Below are positions 33,400 to 55,457 of a stretch of DNA of 64,000 bases, one piece after another. The DNA comes from a virus. The stretch spans positions 1 to 64,000 of IMG/VR virus record IMGVR_UViG_3300025280_000023. The stretch is one strand, 5' to 3'. The notes below the pieces were generated by a model. That model made no database searches. It was not told the origin of the DNA and worked only from the letters and a program-made list of their open reading frames with translations. The position numbers and the translations under genes are program-made. Positions within the stretch are counted from its first letter, which is position 1; each line of letters begins with the position of its first letter.

Positions 33400-33576
33400 T
33401 TATTCTTTTCCCGGATCTTCATCCAGGTGGACTACCGGTGGGTTTTTTACAACAAGTCCATCATTAGTGGGCTCCAAGCTGAACTCTTTAAGGATCCCCG
33501 TAACATCTACTTTGTGTAAAATTCCCCTCTGCAAGGCCATCATTATAGCTCCTACCGCTTGATTCGATAAATTCAT
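33400..33576 (-). CDS. Small conserved-looking protein, 58 aa
   Basis: ATG at 33576 overlaps the epimerase stop by 4 bp (ATGA) and has an excellent AAGGAGG site six bases upstream; the TAA abuts the FmdB-type GTG. Start of the translation: MNLSNQAVGAIMMALQRG. It has a predicted amphipathic helix at residues 5-18, then KVDVTGILKEFSL, and a short acidic tail. No known domain. The strong ribosome-binding site and exact coupling on both sides argue that it is a real gene. Confidence 0.8.
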   Translation of the reverse strand: MNLSNQAVGAIMMALQRGILHKVDVTGILKEFSLEPTNDGLVVKNPPVVHLDEDPGKE

Positions 33577-34454
33577 TTTAGTACCTCCTTAAAACAATTT
33601 CGAATTCCTTCTTCAATTGATACCTTAGTAAACCACCCCAATCTGGCCAACTTTGATTTATTTGCCAGAGTGACCATGACGTCACCTTTTCTTGGTGGTG
33701 CATAATCAAAATTAACGTCCGGATTGAACGCCATAACTATTTCTTTCATTTCATTCAATGAAATGTTGGCACCAGTCCCAACGTCAAAAACCTTTCCATT
33801 AAACTTATCACTATATAGCATAGAGAATATATTTGCGGACACAGCATCAGAAACATGAAGCATGTCCCGTCTCTGCCCGCCGGTTCCCGTTATAAACGGA
33901 TTCTTGCCTTCTCGAATATATTTGATCCAATTTGCTACCGCAGTAGCATACGGTCCATCCGCAGGCTGATCTTTTGAGTACACGTTAAAATACCTAAGGG
34001 CAACCGTATCTAGGCCATATAGTTTCGAATACAGTCCGCATTCCAGTTCAGAGACCAGCTTTTGCAGCGCGTATGGGCTTTCAGGTCCGTAGCCATTGCC
34101 GACGATAGAAGAGGAGCTTGAATAAATAACTCTCTTTGCTCCAACTTTTCTTGCAAAATTTAATACAACACTCGTAGACAAGACATTGTTTTCCATAGTC
34201 TGCACAGGCTGCTCAATACTAAGCGGCACCCTAGGAAAGCAGGCTAAGTGAAAAATATGTTCTGGTTTAAAATTAAAGTAATGTGGATGAAAATTTCCAT
34301 CGCTATCTTCTTTTAGGCCATTTAACTTGGTAATATCTTTTGGAACTTCTTCTTTCAAGTCTATTCCCATAACTTCATGACCCTGATTCTTCAGGGCTTC
34401 AAAAAGCCTAGAGCCAATATAGCCCTTATGTCCTGTCACAAGGCACCTACTCAT
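33573..34454 (-). CDS. NAD-dependent nucleotide-sugar epimerase/dehydratase (SDR)
   Basis: 293 aa, an extended short-chain dehydrogenase. The Rossmann motif is GHKGYIGS (residues 8-15). The catalytic triad region shows SSSSS near residues 110-116 and YALQK at ~127-131 (Y-x3-K). NVYSKDQPADG and RRDMLHVSD are also typical of UDP-hexose 4-epimerases. The probable substrate is a UDP-sugar, interconverting the gluco and galacto forms, but a dehydratase or reductase role cannot be excluded. The gene is the last of the glycan island and overlaps both neighbours by a few bases. Confidence 0.82.
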   Translation of the reverse strand: MSRCLVTGHKGYIGSRLFEALKNQGHEVMGIDLKEEVPKDITKLNGLKEDSDGNFHPHYFNFKPEHIFHLACFPRVPLSIEQPVQTMENNVLSTSVVLNFARKVGAKRVIYSSSSSIVGNGYGPESPYALQKLVSELECGLYSKLYGLDTVALRYFNVYSKDQPADGPYATAVANWIKYIREGKNPFITGTGGQRRDMLHVSDAVSANIFSMLYSDKFNGKVFDVGTGANISLNEMKEIVMAFNPDVNFDYAPPRKGDVMVTLANKSKLARLGWFTKVSIEEGIRNCFKEVLK

Positions 34455-35250
34455 TTTTCATACCTCTCATTTCCCCAATTCTAAGATTGGATTTCCAGAC
34501 CTCTTTTAGGAGTTCCGCAGAATATCCCTCTTTTTCAGCAGCGCAAGTCAACGCATTGATATCCTTTGGAAGACATTTCCCAGAAAACGGTAGTTTATTC
34601 TGGTGAAAAACAGCAGTGTGCATCGGATTGACTCTTGGGTCTAAAAGAAACAACTCTCTTGCTTCATTATAATCCATGCCAATGGCGTCACAAATATTTT
34701 TCATTTCGTAGCAAAACGTTATTTTAGTTGCATAGAAGGAGTTCTCCATATACTTAGCGAACTCCGCAGAAGTCGCATTTGTCTTTACATACTTCTTTGT
34801 GGGGCCAACAACAGGCATAAAATAATCAACCATTTTTGATGTATCCACGGGGTCTCCTCCGAAGATAAAAAATGGGGTCTCCTTTACATCCGTATCAAAA
34901 GCATACGGAGACCAATATGTAGACTCGCCACAATATTCAGGAGAAAATACAATACTTTTGCCTGTTTTCGCTTTGAGTCTTTGAGTTGTTCCCACCTCAA
35001 CAGTTGACTTCAAAAGAATAAGGGGAGTGTCAAGCCAATTAATAGTATCTTCAACAATAGATAAATCGCAGCTACCATCGCCTGCCATGGGGGTTGGAAC
35101 ACAGACGACCCCCAAGTTGCATGTATTTATATATTCTTTACTACAACTCCCTTTTTTTCCAGGATCGTAAAAAACTACATCATAATGATCTTTAAAAAAA
35201 TCATACATTGCGGTCCCAACATAACCAAGTCCGATTATTCCTATTTTCAT
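34447..35250 (-). CDS. UDP-sugar dehydrogenase-like protein, truncated C-terminus
   Basis: 267 aa, about 130-180 aa shorter than typical UDP-glucose/UDP-mannose dehydrogenases. The N-terminal Rossmann fold (MKIGIIGLGYVGTAM) and CVPTP, LKSTVEVGTT and SPEYCGE segments match the family. The active-site stretch FSGKCLPKDINAL with the catalytic Cys is at ~residue 226. The UDP-binding C-terminal domain is missing, so it may act as a trimmed enzyme or as part of a complex. A second, 374-aa dehydrogenase lies at 39960-41084, and the two are too different to be a recent duplication. It overlaps the epimerase by 8 bp. Confidence 0.82.
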   Translation of the reverse strand: MKIGIIGLGYVGTAMYDFFKDHYDVVFYDPGKKGSCSKEYINTCNLGVVCVPTPMAGDGSCDLSIVEDTINWLDTPLILLKSTVEVGTTQRLKAKTGKSIVFSPEYCGESTYWSPYAFDTDVKETPFFIFGGDPVDTSKMVDYFMPVVGPTKKYVKTNATSAEFAKYMENSFYATKITFCYEMKNICDAIGMDYNEARELFLLDPRVNPMHTAVFHQNKLPFSGKCLPKDINALTCAAEKEGYSAELLKEVWKSNLRIGEMRGMKNE

Positions 35251-35257
35251 ATGTTCC

Positions 35258-35899
35258 TCATTTATTCAAAATCTTATCGTACTGGCCAATTTCATCCACG
35301 TTTTTTGTCCTGTTGCTGGCGTGTTGTCTATACCTATAGAGCGGCATCTCTAAATGAAAATAACTATACTTTTTTGAAAATCGCTTTAACAAGTCATGCC
35401 CCTCTCTCATTTTAAACTTTTCATCATAGAAATTAATGCCGCATAGGGACTCGTAAGTAAACATTATACCACATGCGACTGGTTCGTCGCTAAAATTATA
35501 TGCCCCCAAGGTATTGCCAACCTCATCAACTTTTTTATAGTCACATGCAACTGCTTGGTATTTTCTATTCATATCTAAAAATAATGACAGCGACTGTAGG
35601 AAGTGTTTCGACACATAATCATCCGCGTCTATTCGAACAAAGTACCTTCCCAGGGACTGGTTCAGGGTCTTATTTAACGACGCAGGCAACCCTATGTTCT
35701 CTTTATTATTTATAAGTCTAATATTCAAATGTGGCTCAACTATACTACAAATGTCATCTAGGCTTTCATCCGGATTATCATTGACGATTATAACTTCAAA
35801 TTCGTCAGTGGGTAAGGTTTGCCCAATAAGGCTTCTAAGGCACCTGTGTAGCCAGTCTCTCTGTTTATAGCAGCACACAGCTACCGTTACCTTGTACAT
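35258..35899 (-). CDS. Glycosyltransferase family 2 (GT-A fold)
   Basis: 213 aa. The GT2 N-terminus is clear: VTVAVCCYKQRDWLHRCLRS, then FEVIIVNDNPDES, then FVRIDADDYVSKHF, where DADD at ~residue 93 is the metal-binding acidic motif. The protein ends about 100 residues short of many GT2 enzymes, so it is a minimal catalytic domain without membrane segments, hence cytoplasmic. Donor and acceptor unknown. It overlaps the upstream dehydrogenase gene by 13 bp. Confidence 0.85.
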   Translation of the reverse strand: MYKVTVAVCCYKQRDWLHRCLRSLIGQTLPTDEFEVIIVNDNPDESLDDICSIVEPHLNIRLINNKENIGLPASLNKTLNQSLGRYFVRIDADDYVSKHFLQSLSLFLDMNRKYQAVACDYKKVDEVGNTLGAYNFSDEPVACGIMFTYESLCGINFYDEKFKMREGHDLLKRFSKKYSYFHLEMPLYRYRQHASNRTKNVDEIGQYDKILNK

Positions 35900-36783
35900 G
35901 CTTCTAAAATCCCTTCCAGGGCCTTTCTCTGGCTCTCTACAGTCGCACCAGCAACATGGGGGGTTATTACAAGATTATCATGTCGCAAATTGAATAACTT
36001 TGATTCTTTCATGTTATAGACATCTTGTTCATTGCATAAAACATCGCAAGAGTAAAAAATCTTATCATCAGTTATAAGGCCATGAATATAGTCTTCGTCG
36101 ACCACCTCGCCCCTTGAAGTATTCACGACAATTAAGCCATCTCTAAAGTCATCAAAAACACCCTCTCTTATCATCTTCTTTGTTTCTTTTGTCAAATAGC
36201 AATTAATCGAAATTATATCACGATCTTTCAAATCATCAATATTTTTAACTTTTTTGTATTTTTCGTTGTCTACATACGGATCAAAATATGAAATATCCAT
36301 TTCAAATGCAGTTGCATATTTCGCTATTTTCCTACCTATTCTTCCAAGGCCCACAATTCCAATCTTTTTGCCAGCCAACTCATTGGATCTCAGTAGCTCT
36401 TCGTTTGCCTCTGTTCTCCAGGGCCTGTGTTTTTTAACAGCCTTGGTAAATTTTCTAAAGGAGTTCATTATATGGATCCACGTAAATTCCGCCGACGCAT
36501 GAATATTTTCAAGCGCATCCCTATTATCAAGAAGGCATTTTAGTTCAATGCCTTTTTCTTCTAGGTATTTAGAGTCAATATGTCCAACGCCCGTAGACGG
36601 GGTTCCGACGATTTTTAAACCTCTGAACTTAGAAAAATATCTCTCCCCAAGATAGGAATCTGTTCCGGGGTTTACGATTAAACAAGACGGTTCTCCGCTC
36701 GCGCTATAACCATACTTAAATAAAATTTCTCCAAGCTCTTTTTTGCTTAGAAAACCCACAGGACAATCAATTTTAACTCTCAT
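35887..36783 (-). CDS. D-isomer 2-hydroxyacid dehydrogenase
   Basis: 298 aa, of the phosphoglycerate dehydrogenase type. The NAD-binding fold is at KKIGIVGLGRIGRKIAKYA (residues ~140-158). Catalytic residues are visible: R in NTSRGEVVDEDYI, and H in DNLVITPHVAGATVE. The N-terminal substrate domain is present; the extra SerA regulatory domains are not. In nonulosonic-acid or sugar-acid pathways such an enzyme could reduce or oxidise a keto-acid side product, but no specific step is shown. It overlaps both neighbours. Confidence 0.85.
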   Translation of the reverse strand: MRVKIDCPVGFLSKKELGEILFKYGYSASGEPSCLIVNPGTDSYLGERYFSKFRGLKIVGTPSTGVGHIDSKYLEEKGIELKCLLDNRDALENIHASAEFTWIHIMNSFRKFTKAVKKHRPWRTEANEELLRSNELAGKKIGIVGLGRIGRKIAKYATAFEMDISYFDPYVDNEKYKKVKNIDDLKDRDIISINCYLTKETKKMIREGVFDDFRDGLIVVNTSRGEVVDEDYIHGLITDDKIFYSCDVLCNEQDVYNMKESKLFNLRHDNLVITPHVAGATVESQRKALEGILEACTR

Positions 36784-37534
36784 CTTTTTCTCTCAATAAA
36801 AGCTCTGCCCTTCTATCTTTTAGGAGAATCTCTGCTAGTTTTAGATCATTCCACGAGTCTATGTTTACAGAGCTTCTTTCATCCATAATATAAGGGCGAC
36901 ATATTCTACCATGCCTAGAAAACTGTTTAACAATGCAGTCTCTAGTCATCGAATATATGGCCCCATTTCTAATATAGCATGGCTCAAGATCTTGTCTTCT
37001 ACTCCCCTCCCCCTCTGGATGCTCCTTGCAAAAGTCTTCGATCCTGTCGTCTACTATTCTTTTCATCCTAACCGGATGTTTATCCTGCATTTTAACAACA
37101 GACGTAACGCTGTGCGTTCCCGAGTTTACAAGCTTCGTGACCGCATCTTCTATGTGCTCTTCGGTCCTAAGGGGGGCTACACACGGCAATTCTACTACAT
37201 AATCATACTTGATATTGTAGATTTTTTCACATTCGATAACAGCATGTTTTAATGCGTCCCTTGACCACACTCCATCTCCAGATAGTCTTTGCGGCCGCAT
37301 AAACGGAACGAGAGCACCACGTGCTTCAGATATCTTGGCAATTTCTTTGGAATCCGTGCTTACCACATAATGACTAAATACTCCGCTCTTTAATGCCGCA
37401 TCAATCGTATAAGCGATTAAGGGCTTGCCATCTATGTTCCGGATATTCTTTTTAGGAACGCCCTTTGAGCCGCCACGAGCCAATGTTACACCTAGTATTT
37501 TTAAGGTGCCTCCAAATAATTTATTTCTTTTCAT
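36773..37534 (-). CDS. neuA: CMP-nonulosonic-acid cytidylyltransferase, NeuA-like
   Basis: About 253 aa from ATG at 37534 (MKRNKLFGG), which has an AGGA site; the frame also allows an ATG at 37558. The NeuA signature is complete: LARGGSKGVPKKNIR, IDGKPLIAYTI, and YVVSTDSKEIAKI. The SKG element is typical of CMP-sialate, CMP-legionaminate and CMP-pseudaminate synthetases rather than KdsB. It activates the 2-keto sugar acid made by the neighbouring NeuB-like enzyme using CTP. The two genes overlap by 14 bp, so they are co-expressed. The true substrate (Neu5Ac, Leg, Pse or other) cannot be read from the sequence. Confidence 0.87.
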   Translation of the reverse strand: MKRNKLFGGTLKILGVTLARGGSKGVPKKNIRNIDGKPLIAYTIDAALKSGVFSHYVVSTDSKEIAKISEARGALVPFMRPQRLSGDGVWSRDALKHAVIECEKIYNIKYDYVVELPCVAPLRTEEHIEDAVTKLVNSGTHSVTSVVKMQDKHPVRMKRIVDDRIEDFCKEHPEGEGSRRQDLEPCYIRNGAIYSMTRDCIVKQFSRHGRICRPYIMDERSSVNIDSWNDLKLAEILLKDRRAELLLREKDES

Positions 37535-38216
37535 ATATAGATTTCCTAACGCCCTCAACCTGAGAGCCCTGCTCTCTGAGCATTCTTAGCTCGTCTAGGT
37601 TCATAGAGCCGATATGATCGTTCCCTTTCATACCTTTATTTAGTGTAAAATGCTTTTCAATAATCGACGCACCATGCGCAATATTATAAAGAGCGTATGA
37701 TATACCATATGAATGGTCACTAAGTCCAATAATATTAGCATTATATACAAACATTTTAAAGTCTACACAACTTGTTGGATATTTTGAAATGCAATTGAAA
37801 TATTTAACATGGGGAGCCGAAAAAGGTACTCCAAGCCCCTGGTAAAGGCCAAGTGATATGTAAGTCGGCTTTCCAAGGTCAACGATCTTTTTACACAACT
37901 CTTGTTCTTTTACTATCGTTCGACTTGCAATCTTATATCTTTTGACCCCCAACTCTTCGCACCATTCAATTTTTTCCTCATCAAAAACAGAAGCGAAAAA
38001 TTCAATATTATAATGCTCACATATTTGTTTTATTGTTTTGACTTGCTCAAAATTGAATTCATTCTTTTTTCTAGACTCATCTCCAAATACCCGAACAGAA
38101 TCATATAATTGAAACTTAGCAAAATCAGCGCCGCCAATAGCGGATTGCCTTATTAACTCCTCAATTTTTCTAAAGTCTCCGTTGTGATTAATACCTATCT
38201 CAGAAATTATCTTCAC
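37521..38216 (-). CDS. neuB: NeuB-like nonulosonic acid synthase (catalytic barrel only)
   Basis: 231 aa. The NeuB/SpsE barrel is recognisable: ISEIGINHNGDFRKIEEL at the N-terminus, FAKFQLYD (K-x-Q), FFASVFDEE, RYKIASR, IGLSDHSYGISYALY, and EKHFTLNKGMKGNDH at ~185-200. These correspond to phosphoenolpyruvate and metal-binding positions. Known NeuB proteins are 335-350 aa with a C-terminal antifreeze-like SAF domain; this one ends after the barrel, so it lacks the SAF lid. It would condense PEP with a hexosamine-type sugar to make a nine-carbon keto acid. Upstream is GME-like and downstream is NeuA-like. Confidence 0.85.
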   Translation of the reverse strand: MKIISEIGINHNGDFRKIEELIRQSAIGGADFAKFQLYDSVRVFGDESRKKNEFNFEQVKTIKQICEHYNIEFFASVFDEEKIEWCEELGVKRYKIASRTIVKEQELCKKIVDLGKPTYISLGLYQGLGVPFSAPHVKYFNCISKYPTSCVDFKMFVYNANIIGLSDHSYGISYALYNIAHGASIIEKHFTLNKGMKGNDHIGSMNLDELRMLREQGSQVEGVRKSIYEKK

Positions 38217-39192
38217 TTTTTTTAACCTGTCCTTTGATCCAGTTGAATGTCGTTTCCATCCCCGTTTTTAACTCCTGGGAATGGCTCCACCCAAGCTTCT
38301 CTTGGATTAGAGTATTGTCAGAATTTCTGCCCCTTACTCCTAAAGGGCCATCAATATTTTCAATAGAAAGATCTTTACCAGAAATATCAATCGCCATTTT
38401 GGCAAGCTCCTGTATAGTCACCATTTCTTCGGAACCAATATTAACAGGGCCCGCAAAACTAGACTCCATTAGGCGCACTGACGCTTCGATACATTCGTCA
38501 ATATACAGAAAAGACCGTGTTTGCGATCCATCACCCCACACCTCAATAAACCCCCCGTCTTTTCCCTGCGCCGCTTTTCTACACATCGCGGCGGGGGCTT
38601 TTTCTCGCCCACCCGTCCACGCTCCTTCAGGACCAAAGATATTATGATATCTTGCTATGCATACGTCCAGTCCATAATTTTTTGCAAAAGCGGACCATAA
38701 TCTTTCACTAAATAACTTTTCCCATCCATACTCGCTATCGGGATCAGCAGGATATGCGCTGCCTTCCGCACACATAGGATTATTAGGATCCATTTGGTTT
38801 CTTTCCGGGTATATGCACGCAGATGAGGAATAAAACACCTTTTCAACCCCGCTTCTCGTGCATTGTTTCGCTATATTTAAATTAATCATTGCGGAATTAT
38901 GCATTATATCTGCATCATTGTCCCCAGTAAAAACAAACCCAGCGCCCCCCATGTCCGCCGCAAACTGAAACACCCAGTCAAACGTTTTATCAAGAACTAA
39001 ATTACAGACCTTTGGATCGCGCAAATCGCCAATTAGAAACTCGTCAGCCACGGCCGCAATATCAAAAAACTCATGATGCTTTAAGTCCACTCCTCGAACA
39101 TAGTGTCCCTCACTTTTGAGCCTCTTTACCATCGCCCCTCCTATAAACCCTCCAGCGCCACATACCAAAATTCGTTTCTTATTATTTTTCAT
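38200..39192 (-). CDS. GDP-mannose 3,5-epimerase
   Basis: 330 aa. The sequence closely follows plant GDP-mannose 3,5-epimerase (GME): FDWVFQFAADMGGAGF, SSSACIYPERNQM, YPADPDSEYGWEKLFSE, RYHNIFGPEGAWTGGREKAP, and LGVRGRNSDNTLI, each with the plant enzyme's spacing. Catalytic residues are in place: Cys126, Tyr155, Lys159 and Lys198. The Rossmann loop is GAGGFIGG. It converts GDP-mannose to GDP-L-galactose and related products, a step of vitamin C and polysaccharide synthesis in plants. Here it probably feeds GDP-L-hexose to the island's glycosyltransferases. It overlaps NadE by 11 bp. Confidence 0.9.
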   Translation of the reverse strand: MKNNKKRILVCGAGGFIGGAMVKRLKSEGHYVRGVDLKHHEFFDIAAVADEFLIGDLRDPKVCNLVLDKTFDWVFQFAADMGGAGFVFTGDNDADIMHNSAMINLNIAKQCTRSGVEKVFYSSSACIYPERNQMDPNNPMCAEGSAYPADPDSEYGWEKLFSERLWSAFAKNYGLDVCIARYHNIFGPEGAWTGGREKAPAAMCRKAAQGKDGGFIEVWGDGSQTRSFLYIDECIEASVRLMESSFAGPVNIGSEEMVTIQELAKMAIDISGKDLSIENIDGPLGVRGRNSDNTLIQEKLGWSHSQELKTGMETTFNWIKGQVKKSEDNF

Positions 39193-39970
39193 TTCTAAAT
39201 TTTTCTCCTATAAGACATACAGGAGGAAGCTCTAACTTGTGCTTATTATTTATATGTCTCAAGGTATAAATACTCAGTGCTTCTTTCTGCTCTCGTGTCA
39301 AGAACCTACTTTCCTGCTGGTTTTTATCATAAAAGTCTAGCGCCCATTCCAAATTTTTATACGAAGCCCCAATTTGTTCTTCATCTGACCGATTATCACC
39401 CCACAGGCCGTCCGTAGGAATCGCTTCTTGAATTGACTTTGGGACGCCTATAGATTTTGCCATTTTATAAACCTCGGTCTTTAGTAGATCCGCGATCGGA
39501 CTAATATCAACACCACCATCACCGTATTTTGTAAAAAAGCCAATTCCGTAATCTTCAACCTTGTTCCCGGTCCCAACAACTAAATAATTTTTTGAATTCG
39601 CAAAAGCGTATAAAGTTATCATCCTTAAGCGGGAGGCTAAATTGGCATAGGCAAGCTCGCTAATCTCGAAAGGCAATACCGACTTAAAACTCTCATGCAT
39701 GCTTGTTAAATCAATAACATGCGACAAAACATTATCGTATCTACTTTTCAGCCAATCAATTTGTTCATTTGAACGACTAAATTGCCCCTCTTCTTGATTT
39801 ATCGGCATGTTAAGAGCCAGCGTTGGTTCTCCCGTTATTGCAGCAAGCGCAGAAGTTAAGGCAGAATCAATCCCCCCAGAGACTCCAATAACAAATCCTC
39901 GCGCCTTAGATTCAACAAGCTTTTGTGTCATCCATGACGAAATATGTTTTACTACTTCTTCATGCCGCAT
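39182..39970 (-). CDS. nadE: NH3-dependent NAD+ synthetase
   Basis: About 262 aa from ATG at 39970 (MRHEEVVKH), which overlaps the dehydrogenase stop. The family signature is strong: VIGVSGGIDSALTSA (PP-loop, residues ~25-39), SRLRMITLYAFAN, GTGNKVEDYGIGFFTKYGDG, and AIPTDGLWGDNRSDEEQIG. The amidase domain of glutamine-dependent versions is absent, so ammonia is the nitrogen donor. It could supply NAD to the surrounding dehydrogenases and epimerases. PP-loop sugar amidotransferases such as PseA are less likely because the NadE-specific GTGNK and TKYGDG motifs are present. Confidence 0.9.
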   Translation of the reverse strand: MRHEEVVKHISSWMTQKLVESKARGFVIGVSGGIDSALTSALAAITGEPTLALNMPINQEEGQFSRSNEQIDWLKSRYDNVLSHVIDLTSMHESFKSVLPFEISELAYANLASRLRMITLYAFANSKNYLVVGTGNKVEDYGIGFFTKYGDGGVDISPIADLLKTEVYKMAKSIGVPKSIQEAIPTDGLWGDNRSDEEQIGASYKNLEWALDFYDKNQQESRFLTREQKEALSIYTLRHINNKHKLELPPVCLIGEKFRNEK

Positions 39971-41084
39971 GCTGATGCTGCCTGTCTCTGACTTGGTATT
40001 CAAACAGGTCTCCATATAGGCTTCTAACATTGTCAATGACTTCTTTTGATTCTCTTATTATAACCTTGTAGCCTTTTTCCGCGATCTCAACAGCAAACTT
40101 TAACTCTTGTGACTCTTCAAGGATTACCGTCCCTGGCTTATACGTAACTTGTTCAATAATTACATCCTCTTCTTTGTCAGTATCCTTCAAAAACTTTTCA
40201 ACTTGAAATTTCAAATGCAAAAAATTACTCTCATCAGAAGCAACACTAATAGGTACCTTTACATCTTTTTCTTCAGCATAGGCCATTAGGGCCCTGTTGT
40301 CGCGTGGAAGGCACGGACCCCCATAACCAAAACCATACCTCAAGCACTTATTTCCAACTCTTGTATCCGTTCCTATTGCCTCCAAGACCTTATCTGCTTG
40401 TGCGCCCGCCGTTACCGCCAAATCACCAATCATATTAGCAAAGGCAATTTTGGTAGTTAGAAAACAATTAAGAGAGATCTTACATATCTCGGCGCTTAGC
40501 GGGCTCATTCTTTTAATAGAGGGTGAATTAACACAAATATTATTATAGATATTTTCCAAAGTATCGCCTATGTTTTCATTGCCTTCTCCAATTAAGACCA
40601 GATCCGGGCTTTGTTGGTCTCTTAAAATACTCCCCTGGGCAATGAACTCCGGGTTGTAGCTGGCGACGAAACCCTCGCCCTTCAACCTCTCCGTGATCTT
40701 GTCAGTGTACCCGGGCATCACCGTCGCGCAGATTATTAAATGCTTCGTCCGCGCCTGTCTCCCAGAAGAAGACAGTTTTTCAACGACCGAATCTATCTGA
40801 CTATGATCATAGCCGCCATTCGATAGCGACGGTGTGGCTACAACCACGAATAATATATCCGAGTGTTCCACCGCCTCCCTAATGTCTACAGTCGCACGAA
40901 AATTTTTAGATGCTCGCAGGTGCTCTCGTACTCCGGGCTCAGACGTAACCAACCTTTTGTCGTTAATGCTCTTAACATAATCTTCTACTATGTCTACACC
41001 AACAACATTATATCCAGATTTTTCCAATGTCAAAGCGAAACAAAGACCCAACTTGCCGATTCCGATTACCGAGACCTTTTCCAT
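39960..41084 (-). CDS. UDP-glucose/UDP-mannose-type 6-dehydrogenase
   Basis: 374 aa. N-terminal Rossmann domain KVSVIGIGKLGLCFALTLE; conserved ATPS, TVMPGYTD and NPEFIAQGSILRD stretches. The catalytic Cys lies in RYGFGYGGPCLPRDNRALM (residue ~258). A shorter C-terminal UDP-binding region follows. It oxidises a UDP-hexose to the uronic acid with two NAD+, perhaps served by the adjacent NadE. The GME-type enzyme next door uses GDP-sugars, so at least two nucleotide-sugar routes run in parallel. Confidence 0.87.
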   Translation of the reverse strand: MEKVSVIGIGKLGLCFALTLEKSGYNVVGVDIVEDYVKSINDKRLVTSEPGVREHLRASKNFRATVDIREAVEHSDILFVVVATPSLSNGGYDHSQIDSVVEKLSSSGRQARTKHLIICATVMPGYTDKITERLKGEGFVASYNPEFIAQGSILRDQQSPDLVLIGEGNENIGDTLENIYNNICVNSPSIKRMSPLSAEICKISLNCFLTTKIAFANMIGDLAVTAGAQADKVLEAIGTDTRVGNKCLRYGFGYGGPCLPRDNRALMAYAEEKDVKVPISVASDESNFLHLKFQVEKFLKDTDKEEDVIIEQVTYKPGTVILEESQELKFAVEIAEKGYKVIIRESKEVIDNVRSLYGDLFEYQVRDRQHQHAA

Positions 41085-41085
41085 C

Positions 41086-41919: not shown

Positions 41920-42452
41920 TTAACCGCCTCTACATTCAAACTAATGAGCATTCCATTTTCTTTATCCATGTGAGGTTGATATCCTTGGCTATTATCATCA
42001 ACATGTGCGTGCTCTGTTTCACGCCAATCATATCGGTACACTTCTCTAAACCCAACTTCTTCTAGGTCTTGGCTTAACGAATCAAAATCCCAACACCAAT
42101 GATGGAAATTATTTTCATAATCTTGCCCGCCATAAAGAGATCCCCTTAACAAAGGAAGGTCCTTGTGCTTCTGGTAATGCAAACAAATTTTTTCAAAGTC
42201 CGGGACCGCGACCCTTAAAATCCCACCCGGCTTTAAGATATCAAACCATCTTCTTAAAACAGAGCCGTATTCCCACCTAGTAAAATGCTCTAGGACATGA
42301 GATGCGTAAATCAAGTCCGCAGAATTTTTAGGGTACTTCCTGGCGTGTAAATACCTTATATCAGCTACGGCATCAACTGTCGGCATGTGCATGCTGTCTA
42401 TATTGACAAATCCATCGAGATGAACATCTCCACATCCCAAGTGTAGTTTCAT
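41916..42452 (-). CDS. SAM-dependent methyltransferase (type 11-like)
   Basis: About 178 aa from ATG at 42452, one base after the TGA of the upstream gene and preceded by GGGGGAAG. The frame extends upstream to 42554 but inside another gene. [18 protein letters not shown] at the N-terminus, then [12 protein letters not shown] and [14 protein letters not shown] are the hallmarks of this small type, which acts on sugars or lipid-linked glycans. One of three adjacent methyltransferase genes. Confidence 0.8.
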
Positions 42453-42453
42453 T

Positions 42454-46500: not shown

Positions 46501-47404
46501 CTATTACCCCTGACAAAAAATCGCCGTACTTCTCTGAAGTATTTACCATATCAATATCAGTATCGCAATCATTTATGTATTGCTTGCTAAAATCCAAAGG
46601 CCTGGAAACATTGACTTCTTCTGGACTAAGATCCCAGTGATCTTCAATAACAATAGCGCCCTTTCCGGCGATCTCTTTTGTTCCGCCTACGGAAGAACAC
46701 ACAATCTCACAGCCACACGCACGAGCGTCCACAACAACGTTGGGACAGTTATCATATCTCCCAAGATGAACAAGTGTATCCGACGCCTTATAGACCCCTA
46801 AAAGCTCGGACGTAGATAATTCCCCAAGATATTTAAGCTTACTATCCTCAACCACCTGTTCCGTTTCTCCGGCAATCAACATGACATCGTTTTCAGATGA
46901 ATTCTCTAAAAAATATCTTATATTTTCATCCAATCTTTTGAACGGCCTCCAATGTGAGGCTGCGCACCACACCTTGCCATTTTTATTTCTTATCACATGC
47001 GGAGGAGTGTTTTTTATGGCCTCCATATCCGCTCCGTTATGGATAATAGTAGAGTTTTTATGTTCTCCAAAATATTTAAAAACGAGTTCCTTGCTAAACC
47101 TAGACTGAAACACTACCGCATCAGAATTCCGATAAGTTCCGAGTATATTTTGGTTTTTTATTGCAAAATTATCGGTGGGATCAAAATAAATACCATCCAG
47201 CCTCTGTACCATTGGTATGTATCCGTCGGTTGCATTTTTTAATCGCCCATATAAGCTTTCTACAAAAGCCAAATGAACATCGGGAATGCTACCAGGGTGG
47301 TAAAGTTCATGCCCCATTTTCAATAGCTGCTTAACAAGCTTGCTCGCAAAGTGGTTTGGCCCCGTTGTTGACTCGATATTAACATTGTCCAAAAAAATAT
47401 TCAT
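46490..47404 (-). CDS. Glycosyltransferase family 4-like (GT-B)
   Basis: About 304 aa from ATG at 47404, which overlaps the upstream methyltransferase stop (ATGA). An MNIFLDNVN start with GPNHFASKLVKQL, a hinge region HNGADMEAI, and the donor-binding C-terminal part YKASDTLVHLGRYDNCPNVV with VVVDARACGCEIV (residues ~205-230) fit GT4 enzymes. The common E-x7-E is replaced by a D-A-R-A stretch. Cytoplasmic, specificity unknown. Confidence 0.8.
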   Translation of the reverse strand: MNIFLDNVNIESTTGPNHFASKLVKQLLKMGHELYHPGSIPDVHLAFVESLYGRLKNATDGYIPMVQRLDGIYFDPTDNFAIKNQNILGTYRNSDAVVFQSRFSKELVFKYFGEHKNSTIIHNGADMEAIKNTPPHVIRNKNGKVWCAASHWRPFKRLDENIRYFLENSSENDVMLIAGETEQVVEDSKLKYLGELSTSELLGVYKASDTLVHLGRYDNCPNVVVDARACGCEIVCSSVGGTKEIAGKGAIVIEDHWDLSPEEVNVSRPLDFSKQYINDCDTDIDMVNTSEKYGDFLSGVIDED

Positions 47405-48015
47405 TTCTTTTCCGCTACAACAACCTGGCACTCCACTTGGACCGGGCAGATATACTGCTGTTTAATATCAAAGAATTGTGACATATACTCTTGAAGCTCA
47501 CCAAGCGTCCACTCCCTAATGTGCATCTTGTTGTAAGGAGGGCCATTTTCCTCCACCTCCCACCCAAAGCTTCTTTGTAGTCCTTGTATAGCGCCTCTCT
47601 CCGGCGTAGATAAAACCAGAGTCTTAAAGTTCACTTTATTTATAAACCTTAAAAGCTCATCAGGATCTAAAACATGCTCAAGTACATCAGAACATATAAT
47701 TAAATCTACTTCGTCTTGAGGAGGATTATTAAAATCAGACTCTCGAAAATCATATAATGGGTACTTCTTTTTAATAAAAGATAGATTGGGTTCAAGTTCC
47801 AGCCCTATTATTTTTTTATCTCTAAAAAACTTCACAAGCTTATATGCGGAGCCGCATCCAATATCTAAAATTGTTTTATAGGATTCCTGATCGCATATAG
47901 TCCTGGCCTTCTGATAAACCTCTCTTTGGAATTGGTCCGTATGCTCCATCTGTTCACAAGTAACATACTCTTCTCTATGAATGTACCCCTCTTTTATGTT
48001 GTATACTTTATCCAT
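47401..48015 (-). CDS. SAM-dependent methyltransferase
   Basis: About 204 aa from ATG at 48015 (MDKVYNIKEGYI), with a GAGG site upstream and an 8-bp overlap with the preceding gene. Motif I TILDIGCGSAYKLVKFF, GLELEPNLSFI, then IICSDVLEHVLDPDELL and TLVLSTPERGA. The D-V-L-E-H element is the usual type 11/12 signature. Probably modifies a sugar. Confidence 0.82.
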   Translation of the reverse strand: MDKVYNIKEGYIHREEYVTCEQMEHTDQFQREVYQKARTICDQESYKTILDIGCGSAYKLVKFFRDKKIIGLELEPNLSFIKKKYPLYDFRESDFNNPPQDEVDLIICSDVLEHVLDPDELLRFINKVNFKTLVLSTPERGAIQGLQRSFGWEVEENGPPYNKMHIREWTLGELQEYMSQFFDIKQQYICPVQVECQVVVAEKK

Positions 48016-49171
48016 TGTACAAAACCTCATCTAAATACTCAACCGTGCTTTCATAACTTAAAACCCTGGACCAGTCTTTTGTCTTCTTGGCTATGCGATC
48101 ATAGTAATCTTTATCCGAACTAAGTCTTTCAAGCTCTTTTTCAAGCTGCTCTTCATTTCTGACATCTATCGCCGGCATGTCTGCGTACCTTCCGACCGCC
48201 TTCGTGTCCTGTAGGGAGCAGATCGTGGGGACACCAAAATACATCGCCTCAAGGCCGGATTTTCCAACACCTCCACATGTGTCAGTAATTTTATCTATAC
48301 AAACGTGTGATTGCGCCTTTTCAATTATTATATCTTTGTTTGGTAATTGGTTTTCTTTTCCGTATATATTGATCTTTACTTTAGGGATTTTGCTCGCAAC
48401 TTTTTTAACTATATCGCTTCCTTTCTTGTGTGATTCTCGAAGGCCCGGAGTGTGTATTACAGAAAACTCTCCTTTCTTTTTTTCACTAATATACTTAAAA
48501 TCATAAGTTTGCATCAGAGGAAGAGACTCGCGATGCAACCCTACCAAATCTAGCATCGCAAACGCCTGGATATTAAATATGTCTATATATCTGTTAAGGT
48601 TTTCACTATTCTCCCTATACGTTGTATCCGTCCACCAAGACGCTAGTCTTCCGGTAAGCCGCTTCGTGTATTCTTCAACAATACGAAGCTTTTCATTCGT
48701 CGTATGCAGAGAATCCGGAAATATTATTTCTAAAAGTGTTTCCCAGTCTCTAAAAAGGCCTTTGCTTTTCGCAGCCAAACAAAGGCCGATAAAAGACATC
48801 CGGCCTAGAGTATAAGGAGTCCCATTTTCTTCAGACAGATCCGTTATTTGTATTTTGTCCTCGACTCTATATTCTCTACAATAATCAAGTTTAAACAGGA
48901 TCTCAAGCATATCAAGTGAGCGTCCAGAAATACCAAAAAAATATATATCCGGATCATATAGCGCTTCAAGTAAGTATTCTATACTTTCTAATGAAGTTAA
49001 ATCGCTCCAATATTTCTTTTGTTCTTTTTTTAAAAACCCATACGGTATACTATCCGCATAGATGCCCTCCGCCGTAAACCGGCGCGAGTGTTCGTTAATC
49101 GCTTCTATAAGGTTTCCAGATGCACCATACGAAGGGGAAGGCGCAATTATTATTAATTTTTTTTTGTTCAT
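48008..49171 (-). CDS. Putative GT-B glycosyltransferase, 387 aa
   Basis: N-terminal KLIIIAPSPSYGASGNLIEA resembles the acceptor-domain start of GT4 enzymes; the C-terminal domain has FSVIHTPGLRESHKKGS and CGGVGKSGLEAMYFGVPTIC (the donor-binding loop, ~residue 300), which has E in the expected place. A long Tyr/Leu-rich middle separates them. ATG overlaps the next gene stop (4 bp). Specificity unknown. Confidence 0.72.
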   Translation of the reverse strand: MNKKKLIIIAPSPSYGASGNLIEAINEHSRRFTAEGIYADSIPYGFLKKEQKKYWSDLTSLESIEYLLEALYDPDIYFFGISGRSLDMLEILFKLDYCREYRVEDKIQITDLSEENGTPYTLGRMSFIGLCLAAKSKGLFRDWETLLEIIFPDSLHTTNEKLRIVEEYTKRLTGRLASWWTDTTYRENSENLNRYIDIFNIQAFAMLDLVGLHRESLPLMQTYDFKYISEKKKGEFSVIHTPGLRESHKKGSDIVKKVASKIPKVKINIYGKENQLPNKDIIIEKAQSHVCIDKITDTCGGVGKSGLEAMYFGVPTICSLQDTKAVGRYADMPAIDVRNEEQLEKELERLSSDKDYYDRIAKKTKDWSRVLSYESTVEYLDEVLYNG

Positions 49172-49911
49172 TCTAATCCTACGAGCCTATCATAGGGCCT
49201 TTTGGCCCTTATGTCTCTTTCAATGCGAAGCTGCTCCCCTCTGTGTACTCTATCGACCGATATGGGATTTTCTCTATTATAGACATATAGCACATCATAA
49301 ATTGGACAAAAGTGCTCAGGACCAGCCATCTCCACCATAGGATACATCATTGCTTGATCAAATGTACATTTATAGAAGTTACCGTCATGATCAAACATAT
49401 CCTCTTTATTTACTTTTAAAAATAGTTCACGGCGAAATGTCCTCAGGTGAGAAATTGTCCAAGCGTGCCTTCTAATATTGCCATCCCAGAACCCCTTATT
49501 TATTTGAGGCGACGATACAAGCCCATTAGAATTATCAATATATGAACCAGCAGTTATCCATACATCCGGCGTATATATTTCATTCAATCTTGCAAGAACG
49601 TCATGATTAGGAAACCAATCATCACCGTCCAAAGTAATAATTATACTTTCACGGTGAGATCGCACAATCTCGTTATATATGTTTTCTAAGGCCTTCTTGT
49701 TAATCTTGTTTTTTTCATAATGAAAATTTTCAGGATCTCCCAAGTTATCAATAGTGTTACTGACAACCGCATCGGTCTCATCGGTAGAGCAGTCGTTTAT
49801 ATACGCGACATCGAAGTTATCATATTTTTGTGCCAGAGCAGACCTAACGTTTTTTTCTGCCCATTGCTCAACATTGTACGCAGGTATCACTATCGTAAAA
49901 TGTTGTTCCAT
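49168..49911 (-). CDS. Glycosyltransferase family 2
   Basis: 247 aa. FTIVIPAYNVEQWAEKNVRS, VAYINDCSTDETDAV, and ESIIITLDGDDWFPNHDV with DGDD near residue 95 form a complete GT2 catalytic core. The end (HRGEQLRIERDIRAKR) is basic. No membrane anchor. TAATG coupling with the tandem GT-B gene. Confidence 0.87.
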   Translation of the reverse strand: MEQHFTIVIPAYNVEQWAEKNVRSALAQKYDNFDVAYINDCSTDETDAVVSNTIDNLGDPENFHYEKNKINKKALENIYNEIVRSHRESIIITLDGDDWFPNHDVLARLNEIYTPDVWITAGSYIDNSNGLVSSPQINKGFWDGNIRRHAWTISHLRTFRRELFLKVNKEDMFDHDGNFYKCTFDQAMMYPMVEMAGPEHFCPIYDVLYVYNRENPISVDRVHRGEQLRIERDIRAKRPYDRLVGLE

Positions 49912-52001
49912 TACGCAAAACTATTCTGCCAAAAGAAGTCTTTTCGCGTTCTAAGATAATCCAAAGCGCCATCTACATCGCCTTCAAACCAATCCTCTCC
50001 CATGTGTTGAACATTTTCATTAAGCTCTAGTTCACACCCAAGCAGCTTGGCTTCAATAACAAATCTAGGGCAGGTATCGTACCCGCTCGGCTTAAAACAT
50101 ATGCCCTTGGATTGGTTTAGTTTCTCAAGAAACTGCCCATACGGTAAATTAAACAGCACTTCATAATCAAGTTCCTTTTGCGCGCACCACCTCTCAGAGG
50201 CGGCAGCCCCTTTTACCCAGCTATTCGATCCCAAGACGACCCACTTATCCTTCTTGTCGCCATCCTGGGACTTCAATATATCCAACTTCTTGAAAAAGCC
50301 ATCATCAAATACAGAGGACAGAATATGACTATTTGCCTTCTTTATCCCGGGTAGACACTCCTGATATATGTCTCTTTGTTTTTCAGACATAAAGAACGTG
50401 GAGCTAGAATTAGTAATAAAGTCAGATAGAAGCTTTCCTCTAGGCGTTTCTTTATAGTCGCATTCTTCCGGCTCTACAAAAGAATATAACAATGGATTTC
50501 TATGCTTGCAAAACTTATAATCAAATTCTACAAAGCTATACTCTATTCCGGATTCATGAAATAGAGGCAATAAATCAAAATCAATATTGGCTATATTACC
50601 AAAAATCCATTTCTTATCTTTAAACCTATCAATTATTTCCCTTGTTACAAGGTTCGAGTTGACCCTGTTGAGTCCTGTCGGGCACGAATCAATTATTGCC
50701 TGTAGGCTTAGTTCCGCGCCTCCCTGGTACTGTTCCTTGAACAAATCACTCACAAAAATATACTGTGCGTCGTCGGTGTATAAATCACTTCCGCCCAGCA
50801 CAGACTCAACGAACTCTCCATGTTTTGACTCTTCTGAAAAATTCTCTAATAGGTGTGCCTGTAGCTTTTCTGCTTGGCTCTTAAACCTAGGATAGTCTTT
50901 ATAGACCTCCCTAAGCCTCATCTTAAATGAGCCCTCCTTGGGAAAGCACCAGCCAGAATCAGCCTCTAGAACCCCCGGCCAAGCTGCCTCCGGCTCAATC
51001 TGCTGGATGCTGTACTCAACATGCGCAAAATAGGGGCGAATCTTTTCCTTTCCCTTTTTATCTACTTTTGGAGCATATAAGAAATCGCATTGTCCAGACC
51101 ACCCCGGAACAACGATAGGGAGGCCGTTGTATGCACTTTCAAAAAGAGGCAATCCAAACCCTTCTCCGTGTGTAGTAGAAATCATGCATTTAATTTTGGG
51201 ATTATTATATAATGAATTCATCTCTTGAAGGGATAGATCTCCATGCAATAGATATACCTTGCACTTCCTATCCTCATACTTTTTCAAGAACTTTTTAAGC
51301 TTTTTAGTAGCCCTGCTTCTATCGATCAAGGAGTTGTTCTCCATGTTCATCTTGATAACAAGCCCTACTTCCTGATCGATAAACTCCTCAACAAACCATC
51401 TCAAGCAAGACTTAAGGTTTTTTCTTGGTGAGAATTGCGCAATCGTCAGGAAATTAAAATCATATTCCAGATCCAATTGTATATCTTTTTCTTCAGTCTC
51501 CCTCACAGGGTATGAAACAACATCAACCGGCGTTGTCAATCTAAAATCTTTAATCTCTTGCCCTGTATTGGGGTCTCTCTTCGTATAAGAAGTGTTTTCA
51601 TAAACCTCCTTCGAGTGATTAGACACAACAATAATCCTATCCATAAAATTACCGGACTCAATCCACTGCCCGGATACTTTCGTTGTCTCAATACCAGCAG
51701 TATACCCGATGTTTATGGGTGCCATTTTTTCAAATTCATTCGGTATGGTTACCTGAAGGGATATGTCATAGGGCCTCTTTTCACCATGAAGATTCGATTG
51801 GTGCTTCATAATAAGTGAATCAAGCCACTCCCGCTCCTCATCATCCTCAAAAATCCAGCCTGTTTTCCCCCAATTAGTAGGAATCAAAAATATATCAAAT
51901 AGGTCTTCTCTTGTTCTTAGTGCCCTTAATGCAAATCGAGTTTGCTCTCCGTACCCGCTTTGGGATAGTGCTGGGCCTCGTACTATAATTCTTTTTTTCA
52001 T
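49911..52001 (-). CDS. Two-domain glycosyltransferase, tandem GT-B
   Basis: About 696 aa from ATG at 52001, one base after the TAA of the upstream gene. First unit (residues ~1-420): IIVRGPALSQSGYGEQTRF, FNFLTIAQFSPRKNL, and THGEGFGLPLFESAYNG with the E-x7-E motif of GT4. Second unit (~430-690): FVSDLFKEQYQGGAELSLQ, KWVVLGSNSWVKGAA, and KPSGYDTCPRFVIEAKL. So it is a fusion of two GT-B units, which may add two sugars in sequence. The second lacks E-x7-E and could be a degenerate or binding unit. Confidence 0.82.
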   Translation of the reverse strand: MKKRIIVRGPALSQSGYGEQTRFALRALRTREDLFDIFLIPTNWGKTGWIFEDDEEREWLDSLIMKHQSNLHGEKRPYDISLQVTIPNEFEKMAPINIGYTAGIETTKVSGQWIESGNFMDRIIVVSNHSKEVYENTSYTKRDPNTGQEIKDFRLTTPVDVVSYPVRETEEKDIQLDLEYDFNFLTIAQFSPRKNLKSCLRWFVEEFIDQEVGLVIKMNMENNSLIDRSRATKKLKKFLKKYEDRKCKVYLLHGDLSLQEMNSLYNNPKIKCMISTTHGEGFGLPLFESAYNGLPIVVPGWSGQCDFLYAPKVDKKGKEKIRPYFAHVEYSIQQIEPEAAWPGVLEADSGWCFPKEGSFKMRLREVYKDYPRFKSQAEKLQAHLLENFSEESKHGEFVESVLGGSDLYTDDAQYIFVSDLFKEQYQGGAELSLQAIIDSCPTGLNRVNSNLVTREIIDRFKDKKWIFGNIANIDFDLLPLFHESGIEYSFVEFDYKFCKHRNPLLYSFVEPEECDYKETPRGKLLSDFITNSSSTFFMSEKQRDIYQECLPGIKKANSHILSSVFDDGFFKKLDILKSQDGDKKDKWVVLGSNSWVKGAAASERWCAQKELDYEVLFNLPYGQFLEKLNQSKGICFKPSGYDTCPRFVIEAKLLGCELELNENVQHMGEDWFEGDVDGALDYLRTRKDFFWQNSFA

Positions 52002-52002
52002 T

Positions 52003-53259
52003 TTATACCTCCAGTAGCTCCCATCCCTTATATAACTTAGTCGGCCAGCTTCCATTCCTTTCATGAATATCAGTCAATAAATCAACCCATTGTTGATTAT
52101 GATTATCAAAATTATAATTCTTCTTGACGTATTCTCTACCAAGAGTTCCAAGCGCCTTTCTATCTTCCTCCGGTAGCTCCCAAATCTTAACCAATGCGTC
52201 TATGACATCTTCCTTGCCAACCCTATCTTCATAGATATAAGGGATATCTTGTGTGCCGACAATTGCCTTGGAAGCCGGTTCTATTCCAACGCCGAACCAA
52301 TTCTTCCCATCCGTAACCTGTTCCTGTAGGCCTCCGGTCATATTGACAATAATTGGAGTACCACAAGAGAGCGATTCTAAAGTACTCAGGCCAAACCCCT
52401 CCGCATCAGATATATTTATCGTTACATCCGACAAGTTATACATGTTCGCAAGAAACTCCTGTGGTACGATATTATTATTTATAATGAGTTCCTGGTCTGT
52501 CAACTCCAAGTCATTTTTAATAGCTTGAAGATTCTGTCCATTTGGATCATACGGATTTGTATGCATTAGCAAAACCGCTTTGTCTCGGCCAACCTTGTCT
52601 AAAAAGTCTTTCCACCAAAATACCAAAGAACCACTAAGCTTTCTACGCGCATTTCTATTATTCCAAAAAACAACAAACCTATCATTTTCTAAGGTTGGAA
52701 AGTGCTTTTCAGAAAATTTACTTAATTCATCCTTGGGCGTCGGTTGAAATAGCTCACTGTCAACGGAATGCGGGATGTAGGTATTTTCCAAATCAGGGCA
52801 CACGGTACTAACAATATCATGTGTGACCTTAGAAATAGAGACAAAGTGGTCATTAGAGCCCCATACTGGCTTGTTGTAAACCGGATACGGATAATTGTCC
52901 CAAATCCCATACCACACCATAGGCACTAAGGGCCTGACTTCATTTGACATCTCAAGGAGCCATTGAAAAAACCTTGGATCCGATTGAAACAGTAGAACAT
53001 CTGGACGTTGAGTACGCAACAGGCTCCTTATTGTTTCTTGCGATCCAAACCCATCTATGGGTTGGATAATCCAATCATCACCAAACTCTTCTGTCTTAAT
53101 TGGATTATAGTCCTCGTGCTTTATTGCTCCACCAAACGAATACACAGTGAACTTACCGGATCTTAACAGCGCCGTGATTATAGTCCTCATTGTGTGGGCC
53201 ACCCCTGACGCCATCAGCGGGTGATCAGAGATCGTAAAGACCTTAATTTTTTCAGACAT
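52003..53259 (-). CDS. Glycosyltransferase family 4
   Basis: 418 aa. N-terminal KVFTISDHPLMASGVAHTMR acceptor-domain start; FVVFWNNRNARRKLSG; ISDAEGFGLSTLESLSCGTP (residues ~281-300) is a clean E-x7-E motif; a C-terminal helix REYVKKNYNFDNHNQQWVD follows. A typical cytoplasmic GT-B glycosyltransferase using a nucleotide-sugar. First gene of the glycan island, after the Cas4-like gene. Confidence 0.87.
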   Translation of the reverse strand: MSEKIKVFTISDHPLMASGVAHTMRTIITALLRSGKFTVYSFGGAIKHEDYNPIKTEEFGDDWIIQPIDGFGSQETIRSLLRTQRPDVLLFQSDPRFFQWLLEMSNEVRPLVPMVWYGIWDNYPYPVYNKPVWGSNDHFVSISKVTHDIVSTVCPDLENTYIPHSVDSELFQPTPKDELSKFSEKHFPTLENDRFVVFWNNRNARRKLSGSLVFWWKDFLDKVGRDKAVLLMHTNPYDPNGQNLQAIKNDLELTDQELIINNNIVPQEFLANMYNLSDVTINISDAEGFGLSTLESLSCGTPIIVNMTGGLQEQVTDGKNWFGVGIEPASKAIVGTQDIPYIYEDRVGKEDVIDALVKIWELPEEDRKALGTLGREYVKKNYNFDNHNQQWVDLLTDIHERNGSWPTKLYKGWELLEV

Positions 53260-55454: not shown

Positions 55455-55457
55455 TTG

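Follow-up and report, generated by a model that had tools for sequence, protein, structure and literature searches.

What is a phage doing with a twenty-kilobase run of sugar genes, and on which acceptor would the resulting glycan be built? This question is raised by the window analysed here, the first 64 kb of the 123,549-base partial virus record IMGVR_UViG_3300025280_000023 (G000 below). At positions 33573-53259 the window carries an island of 22 minus-strand open reading frames (ORFs), each overlapping the next or lying at most 7 bases from it, and a gap of 10 bases separates the last of them from an exonuclease gene upstream. An earlier note on this DNA had correctly described the 22 consecutive, overlap-coupled genes and had proposed that they form a dedicated, undescribed system for the cytoplasmic glycosylation of virion proteins (or DNA). 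We find that the island is a modular locus, in which a constant frame is combined with a variable cassette of sugar genes. The locus is real and recurring, and the mechanism put forward in that note is plausible. The best explanation, which we hold tentatively and would place just short of even, is a soluble locus that assembles a glycan in the cytoplasm, most likely on a virion protein. The enzyme activities are predicted from fold or family; we infer the acceptor and the purpose of the glycan.

The constant frame is made up of the following genes.

59027-60337, plus strand: PhoH-like gene at the outer edge of the frame (phrog_2765, E 4.4e-111), also found upstream in relatives.
54449-55117, minus strand: w54449, a small gene between phoH and the exonuclease, with a homologue at the same position in relatives.
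53270-54031, minus strand: PD-(D/E)XK exonuclease (PF12705, 2.9e-18; phrog_1218).
52003-53259, minus strand: w52003, the constant glycosyltransferase GT4a (PF00534, 2.4e-11).
49911-52064, minus strand: w49911, the constant glycosyltransferase GT4b (PF00534, 2.1e-5, below the cut-off, and alignment).
32143-32943, minus strand: w32143, a gp55-like late sigma gene at the other edge of the frame (phrog_234, E 0.0021).

Relatives of GT4a (w52003 and its relatives) were found in at least 594 of 599 candidate stretches and relatives of the gp55-like protein in at least 587; the best 80 loci of each scan were kept. Among these GT4a loci, 72 of the 73 with enough flank have a PD-(D/E)XK gene no more than 2.5 kb upstream of GT4a, and 76 of 77 have GT4b directly downstream. 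The GT4b of the window has an additional C-terminal half. The gene for gp55 is within reach in 18 of the 80 loci, at a distance of 1.5-9.6 kb. In eight contigs common to both scans, the GT4a-gp55 distance ranges from 2.2 to 19.9 kb (19.06 kb in the window), and the variable sugar genes between GT4b and gp55 take up anything from 0 to about 18 kb. The order phoH-w54449-exonuclease-GT4a-GT4b-gp55 occurs without any cassette in L125 and L128/L278. Several loci with a 1.5-kb distance (e.g. L274, L276 and L283) and lineage B (L011-L017) have sugar genes upstream of the exonuclease instead, so that cassettes can dock on either side of GT4a-GT4b; in L277 and L284, no sugar genes were recognised upstream of the exonuclease. 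At least one homologue of an island cassette gene was found upstream of gp55 in 61 of the best 80 gp55 loci, and in 54 of the 60 that have at least 5 kb of upstream sequence. A search for the same gene order in related genomes, as the earlier note had suggested, recovered the frame in many related viral contigs and the window's own gene set seldom, also upstream of gp55. The GT4a-GT4b pair stands as the constant part of the proposed dedicated system, while its nonulosonate genes are a patchy cassette. The small frame gene w54449 resembles PF07737, a domain of the metallopeptidase type, weakly and below the threshold.

The pair extends to cultured phages. GT4a has matches in 10 of 50,697 phage records, including Flavobacterium phage immuto, Microcystis phage Mel-JY01 and, weakly, Rhodothermus phage RM378. 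In immuto, a PD-(D/E)XK nuclease, GT4a and GT4b are followed by eight annotated sugar-type genes (a GT2 enzyme, two aminotransferases, a methyltransferase, a mannosyltransferase, a "pilin glycosylation protein", an epimerase and another glycosyltransferase) and some hypothetical ones. The order in Mel-JY01 is nuclease, IMP dehydrogenase, a split GT4a, GT4b and more transferases. RM378 has two weakly similar genes, with neither a cassette nor a PD-(D/E)XK match. The major capsid protein gp23 of a relative of the window (G002) scores 371-362 bits against LR756508, immuto and Mel-JY01, 250 against RM378 and 170 against cyanophages. This capsid likeness would fit the Far-T4 group, which includes RM378 (PMC4360716, available text), and we take the phage of the window to be a deep-branching T4-type phage, perhaps of that group. 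In the main text of that paper, as available, the words glycosyl, lipopolysaccharide, sugar and polysaccharide are all absent. A 484-kb uncultured phage (LR756508.1) matches the window's NeuB, GT4a, gp55-like and gp6-like proteins at scattered places, and very large phages may thus share parts of the system.

Which sugars would the cassette of the window supply? Its most distinctive genes belong to nonulosonic acid metabolism.

37521-38216, minus strand: w37521, a short NeuB (nonulosonate synthase) of 231 residues without the SAF domain (PF03102, 6.9e-37), aligning with 6ncs and 1vli.
36773-37558, minus strand: w36773, cytidine monophosphate (CMP)-nonulosonate cytidylyltransferase (PF02348, 1.4e-21; PDB 6ifd, E 1.5e-30).
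35887-36783, minus strand: w35887, D-2-hydroxyacid dehydrogenase (PF02826, 4.7e-37).
35258-35899, minus strand: w35258, GT2 glycosyltransferase of the nonulosonate cassette (PF00535, 7.1e-21).
44277-44972, minus strand: w44277, predicted transferase acting on CMP-nonulosonate, its fold resembling GT42 (CstII) (AlphaFold, Foldseek and VIA).

Judged from the families of NeuB and the CMP-transferase, this cassette should make a CMP-nonulosonic acid. We leave the sugar unnamed because w36773 stays below the cut-off of the PseF model (TIGR03584, 1.9e-44). NeuB recurs at 62-100% identity in 14 further contigs (L004-L017), one of which (L004) is a near-identical copy. The hydroxyacid dehydrogenase, the GT2 gene and a nucleoside diphosphate (NDP)-sugar dehydrogenase accompany it in all 14 loci, and a separate CMP-transferase in 13. 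The remaining locus, L007, has a fusion instead, a single protein joining NeuB and a CMP-transferase domain (L007:10684-12456). An epimerase of the w33573/w38200 cluster is present in 13 of the 14, not always adjoining NeuB. IGINHNGD, EKHFT and other stretches, which we take to have a catalytic role, are invariant among nine phage NeuB sequences. The NeuB of the window is 62-73% identical to those of other phages (plus the one copy at 100%) and 47% to the best bacterial one among the matches listed, and the phage set NeuB-CMP-transferase-hydroxyacid dehydrogenase-GT2 occurs in none of the best 80 bacterial NeuB loci. Neither a DegT-type aminotransferase (PF01041) nor, above the cut-off, a NeuC-type enzyme (PF02350; sub-threshold in G011 and G012) was found in any of 15 records, the window's own being incomplete. 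Because both gene types are missing there, the six-carbon precursor is probably supplied by the host.

These genes were considered as a universal core of the locus, an idea that was rejected as window-type NeuB is rare in sets not chosen by NeuB: at 55% identity or more, it occurs in none of the 80 GT4a loci and in one of the 80 gp55 loci, L148, which is the same contig as L006. Over all loci chosen by NeuB, with the near-duplicate L015 dropped, the matrices of NeuB and gp55 correlate at 0.73-0.85 (0 of 2000 permutations as high); the correlation is weaker within lineage B (43-81 of 2000). Since these loci had been selected by NeuB, the apparent co-inheritance is no sign of a universal core.

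The cassettes of relatives include GT29-like (L012, 4e-11; L008, 3e-6) and MptE-like (L012, 4e-12) proteins, which join w44277 as candidate CMP-sugar transferases in favour of our reading, besides additional CMP-transferases and a synthase of the DAHP/KdsA type. In L012, a cassette at about 1.7-6.1 kb combines a DAHP/KdsA-like synthase, two CMP-transferases, GT29-like and MptE-like proteins and an HpcH aldolase, and L017 shares its gene clusters. This cassette perhaps makes a second acidic sugar, similar to 3-deoxy-D-manno-oct-2-ulosonic acid (Kdo).

The candidate for transferring the nonulosonic acid in the window is w44277, for which the Pfam search gave no family. An AlphaFold model built from six sequences (predicted local distance difference test, pLDDT, 77.9) has CstII as its best Foldseek match (2x61, E 4.1e-5, TM score about 0.47), and VIA superposes it on CstII 1ro8 with Z 11.6 and a root-mean-square deviation of 3.6 over 178 residues. 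The next structural matches are a Pasteurella sialyltransferase, SteA, an archaeal HPPK and GT29 enzymes, with Z falling to 5 after row 15. Residues H199, N36, N37 and N66, as well as the GLDFYQ stretch, do not vary among ten sequences, of which two are copies; they presumably resemble the CstII active site. A homologue adjoins NeuB in L006, L007 and L008, is one gene away in L009 and L010, and lies farther off in L005 and the window. From its fold, w44277 is predicted to transfer nonulosonic acid from the CMP-sugar. Sequence comparisons were silent in this respect: PF06002 gave no match in G000 and one sub-threshold match in G014, with the control genomes silent as well; a PDB sequence search did not recover the CstII likeness; and a profile comparison with the GT29-like and MptE-like phage proteins gave a probability below 1%.

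A second pair of enzymes points to uronic acids.

39182-40036, minus strand: w39182, protein of the nicotinamide adenine dinucleotide (NAD) synthetase family, NadE (PF02540, 3.8e-53).
39960-41084, minus strand: w39960, NDP-sugar dehydrogenase of the uridine diphosphate (UDP)-glucose type (TIGR03026, 2.1e-71, above the cut-off).

The two genes overlap by 77 bases. A scan with w39182 gave 68 viral loci, and in 57 of these a window-type dehydrogenase is adjoining (41) or about one gene away (16); it is farther off in two, two have full flanks without it, and in seven the contig ends too near. Both loci of the gp55 set that have a window-type dehydrogenase also have NadE, while three such loci of the GT4a set have no NadE in reach. 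The same pair, annotated as NAD synthetase and UDP-glucose dehydrogenase, stands beside glycosyltransferase or methyltransferase genes in S-SSM7 and HTVC008M. NadE converts a carboxylate to an amide, which makes uronic-acid amidation an attractive guess, and the pairing hints that the NadE-family protein amidates the product of the dehydrogenase. The alternative is a role in NAD supply, since the SGGIDS loop is retained in w39182, which shares 49.8% identity with a cellular NadE. We met no description of the NadE-dehydrogenase pairing, though no literature search was aimed at it. If amidation is true, the pairing would mean that the name "NAD synthetase" given to this gene in S-SSM7, HTVC008M and other marine phages needs correcting.

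Is the glycan exported? The earlier note had seen no flippase, polymerase, ABC transporter or membrane protein in the island, and this is borne out by hydropathy and Pfam. No island protein has a hydropathy segment above 1.6 (the maximum is 1.52, in w39182), and the nearest protein with such a segment, w32819 (32819-33151, one segment), lies outside the island. No member of the flippase family PF01943 was found in two sets of 17 and 18 records (3 common to both sets, 32 distinct; many are fragments), with the control positive in 13 of 14 genomes in both searches. Nor was a flippase found outside the window, be it in its own (incomplete) record or in relatives; the presence of a Wzx/Wzy or ligase gene just outside the window was what the note had named as refuting its reading. 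The initiating phosphoglycosyltransferase PF02397 was found in none of 15 records (control 9 of 14), in a search that did not include PF00953 (WecA). Multi-spanning proteins were counted by crude hydropathy (threshold 1.3 with a density rule, ORFs of at least 150 residues), an ABC transporter control scoring 5; a first transmembrane count at a threshold of 1.6 had been dropped because this real transporter scored just 3. The best 80 bacterial NeuB loci contain 37 such proteins in 31 loci (3.52 per 100 kb) and the best 80 phage gp55 loci a single one (0.07 per 100 kb), so that they are about 50 times rarer around the phage loci. There is none in the 14 NeuB-related phage loci or in the whole 185-kb G002. 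G006 has one, outside its island and without a Pfam family, and G000 has one such ORF, antisense to two minus-strand ORFs. In the nearest bacterial NeuB locus among the matches listed (L041, 47%), a GT2 gene and then an ABC transporter gene follow.

Taken together, we propose that GT4a and GT4b would begin a glycan, or lengthen one, on an acceptor that is fixed and specific to the phage, and that the neighbouring swappable cassette would provide more activated sugars, transferases and methyl groups. In the window, NeuB and the CMP-transferase would yield CMP-nonulosonic acid, the CstII-fold transferase would attach the sugar, and a UDP-uronic acid would also be formed, possibly amidated by the NadE-family protein. 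Assembly would take place in the cytoplasm without a lipid carrier or export, and the cassette would set the surface chemistry of the particle. A virion protein is favoured as the acceptor by three points, which are arguments and not proof: the machinery is apparently all soluble; phages with very different hosts have the GT4 pair, some of them lacking a cassette; and NeuB is nearer to that of other phages than to any bacterial one among the matches listed. Several points weigh against this. No acceptor gene or site was identified. The partial record G000 has no recognisable gp23, and the clusters of immuto and Mel-JY01 are apart from the baseplate genes. The cellular NadE homologue (49.8%) is no more distant than many viral ones (42-64%). 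In addition, a relative's sugar region has a multi-spanning protein of 517 residues upstream of gp55 (L176:1-1554, start cut off, no Pfam family). We consider it rather unlikely that the most specific form of the proposal holds in full, namely a Far-T4-like "virion serotype" locus with a GT4a-GT4b base glycan on a virion protein, capped by docked cassettes with a nonulosonic acid added by the CstII-fold enzyme and a uronamide made by a NadE taken out of NAD metabolism.

A serious contender, to which we give something like one third of our belief, is remodelling of the host surface: phage enzymes would alter precursors of host lipopolysaccharide (LPS), lipo-oligosaccharide (LOS) or capsule, which the host's own flippase and ligase then export, and the effect would be to block superinfection or to keep progeny from adsorbing to debris. 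Bacterial CstII-type enzymes act on LOS, the exchange of cassettes at one fixed site resembles the way O-antigens vary, and S-SSM7 and HTVC008M also have the NadE-dehydrogenase pair in their sugar clusters. It is also the published reading of similar cyanophage and pelagimyophage clusters in the available text of PMC7029224 and PMC7824862. The lack of PF02397 and of flippases in the records searched and the near absence of multi-spanning proteins argue against it, as do the NeuB relationship and the host range and cassette-free occurrence of the GT4 pair. The missing export genes are not decisive, because soluble phage glycosyltransferases could decorate a host-exported lipid-linked unit or the LOS core. 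While the soluble, export-free synthesis, the nonulosonic-acid enzymes and the methyltransferases of the earlier note hold, no result separates its virion protein from a host glycan. Hypermodification of phage DNA, with the transferases glycosylating a modified base as in T4 and RB69, is improbable in our view. Viral glycosyltransferases acting on DNA reportedly exist (Pyle, in 2024), and the constant pair adjoins an exonuclease gene and lies near replication genes in cultured relatives. What disfavours a DNA acceptor is the scarcity of the thymidylate-synthase/hydroxymethylase family (0 of 17 and 2 of 20 records, G023 and immuto); also, several glycosyltransferases, six methyltransferases and a nonulosonic acid exceed the usual base-modification sets. 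A search for TET/JBP gave no match but carries no weight, as its control failed too. We find it just as hard to believe that the product is a soluble storage glycan or secondary metabolite, or that the island is passenger "stuffer" DNA without phage function. The patchiness of the cassettes (none to about 18 kb) would fit such readings, and the stuffer option has been raised for cyanophage LPS clusters (PMC3037559, available text), but each of the 22 frames is open and they are closely spaced, long NeuB stretches are invariant in nine sequences, and the GT4 pair stands together in nearly every locus examined.

The other genes of the island are as follows.

49168-49911, minus strand: w49168, GT2 glycosyltransferase (PF00535, 3.6e-18).
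48008-49171, minus strand: w48008, weak GT1/GT4-like glycosyltransferase (PF00534, 7.7e-4, below the cut-off).
47401-48030, minus strand: w47401, methyltransferase (PF13489, 4.8e-12).
46490-47431, minus strand: w46490, GT1/GT4 glycosyltransferase (PF00534, 2.5e-8).
45817-46500, minus strand: w45817, FkbM-type methyltransferase (PF05050, 1e-7).
44973-45824, minus strand: w44973, FkbM-type methyltransferase (PF05050, 3.8e-18).
43226-44284, minus strand: w43226, orphan protein of 352 residues, no family.
42454-43233, minus strand: w42454, marginal FkbM-like methyltransferase (PF05050, 1.1e-4; 22.8 bits against a cut-off of 22.7).
41916-42554, minus strand: w41916, methyltransferase (PF13489, 2.3e-7, C-terminal half of the profile only).
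41086-41919, minus strand: w41086, methyltransferase (PF13649, 3.5e-18), a neighbour of NadE in several other loci too.
38200-39192, minus strand: w38200, SDR epimerase/dehydratase (PF01370, 4.5e-42).
34447-35250, minus strand: w34447, short NDP-sugar dehydrogenase-like protein (PF00984, 1.1e-22) without the C-terminal UDP-binding domain.
33573-34454, minus strand: w33573, SDR epimerase/dehydratase at the gp55 end of the island (PF01370, 1.9e-42).

Pfam agrees with the nucleotide-sugar synthesis (w33573, w38200, w34447 and w39960, together with NeuB, the CMP-transferase, the 2-hydroxyacid dehydrogenase and NadE) and with the six methyltransferases claimed, all above the cut-off (w41086, w41916, w42454 barely, w44973, w45817 and w47401). 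"About eight" glycosyltransferases was too high a count: four are above the curated cut-off (w35258, w46490, w49168 and w52003), two are below (w48008 and w49911) and one is predicted by fold (w44277), which makes six or seven. In w34447, Cys226 in the motif GxCxP(K/R)D is invariant in seven sequences. For the orphan w43226, one 100% copy was the sole relative found, and its structure model was uninformative (pLDDT 34).

The placement of the island had been described as directly upstream of the gp55-like gene and tail genes, inside the late operon. The gp55-like gene is indeed close, being the third listed ORF past the island's end, and baseplate wedge genes lie farther along; a search of G000 with PF04865 gave no match. 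The late-operon claim is unproven. There are 12 sites of the late-promoter pattern TATAAATA against 6.4 expected (12 were reached in 1 of 100 shuffles), but ten of them lie inside genes and two in a gap on the other strand. The immuto cluster, moreover, is far from the gp55-like gene (GT4a by about 28 kb, the end of the sugar cluster by about 18 kb). The intergenic region at 55455-55591, upstream of 55089-55454, contains repeated TTGGATCC-type units. Elsewhere in the record, at 75.3-91.9 kb (L001, L002), several proteins have a common N-terminal leader like MKxLLExWxxxL; 5 of 149 ORFs fit a loose pattern of this type, where shuffled sequences give 0.22, and more were seen by eye. T4 internal head proteins carry a capsid-targeting sequence, and by analogy the leader may be such a tag.

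How does the locus compare with known systems? Sugar clusters of marine T4-like phages (P-SSM2, S-SSM7 and pelagimyophages) have been published and named LPS genes (PMC3037559, PMC7029224, PMC7824862, all as available), so that the system is not undescribed as such; the function of the cyanophage clusters is left open in the available text of PMC3037559. In the literature searched, as far as its text was available, no description was found of the fixed slot, the constant pair and the nonulosonate cassette. Where the available text names or interprets the marine clusters as LPS genes, it quotes no experimental test of this. The fixed dock, a transferase pair shared with cultured phages and the existence of cassette-free relatives bring the acceptor question within reach of laboratory work. 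Should the virion carry the glycan, phages would possess surface "serotypes" that can be exchanged.

As here, the cyanophages P-SSM2, S-SM2 and S-SSM7 have large sugar clusters, that of P-SSM2 near phoH (PMC3037559, available text), and S-SSM7 has methyltransferase, NadE, UDP-glucose dehydrogenase and glycosyltransferases in a row. In contrast, S-SSM7, which is in the collection searched, gave no tblastn match (E 1e-5) to the window's GT4a, NeuB or CMP-transferase; P-SSM2 and S-SM2 are not among the matches either, their presence in the collection being unchecked. The exonuclease-GT4a-GT4b frame is unmentioned in the available text of PMC3037559. Pelagimyophages of the HTVC008M group have a hypervariable host recognition cluster with glycosyltransferases (PMC7029224, available text), and HTVC008M has the NadE-dehydrogenase pair; that region also holds tail-fibre genes, whereas the dock of the window runs from exonuclease-GT4a-GT4b to gp55. 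Flavobacterium phage immuto 2-6A, whose isolation host is Flavobacterium sp. LMO8, shares the PD-(D/E)XK nuclease, GT4a, GT4b and sugar genes, and its capsid is close to that of G002, but it has annotated aminotransferases, no annotated NeuB and a GT4a about 28 kb from its gp55-like gene. Virion glycosylation in mycobacteriophages involves a few glycosyltransferases, whereas the island here is a 22-gene pathway. Glycans are reported on the capsid and tail tube of those phages (Freeman 2023, cited in the available text of PMC12619734). Although their hosts are eukaryotic and the likeness drawn here is one of description, chloroviruses and giant viruses with autonomous glycosylation resemble the present locus in that the virus itself encodes a pathway of sugar synthesis and transfer (PMC4691112, PMC10117803, as available).

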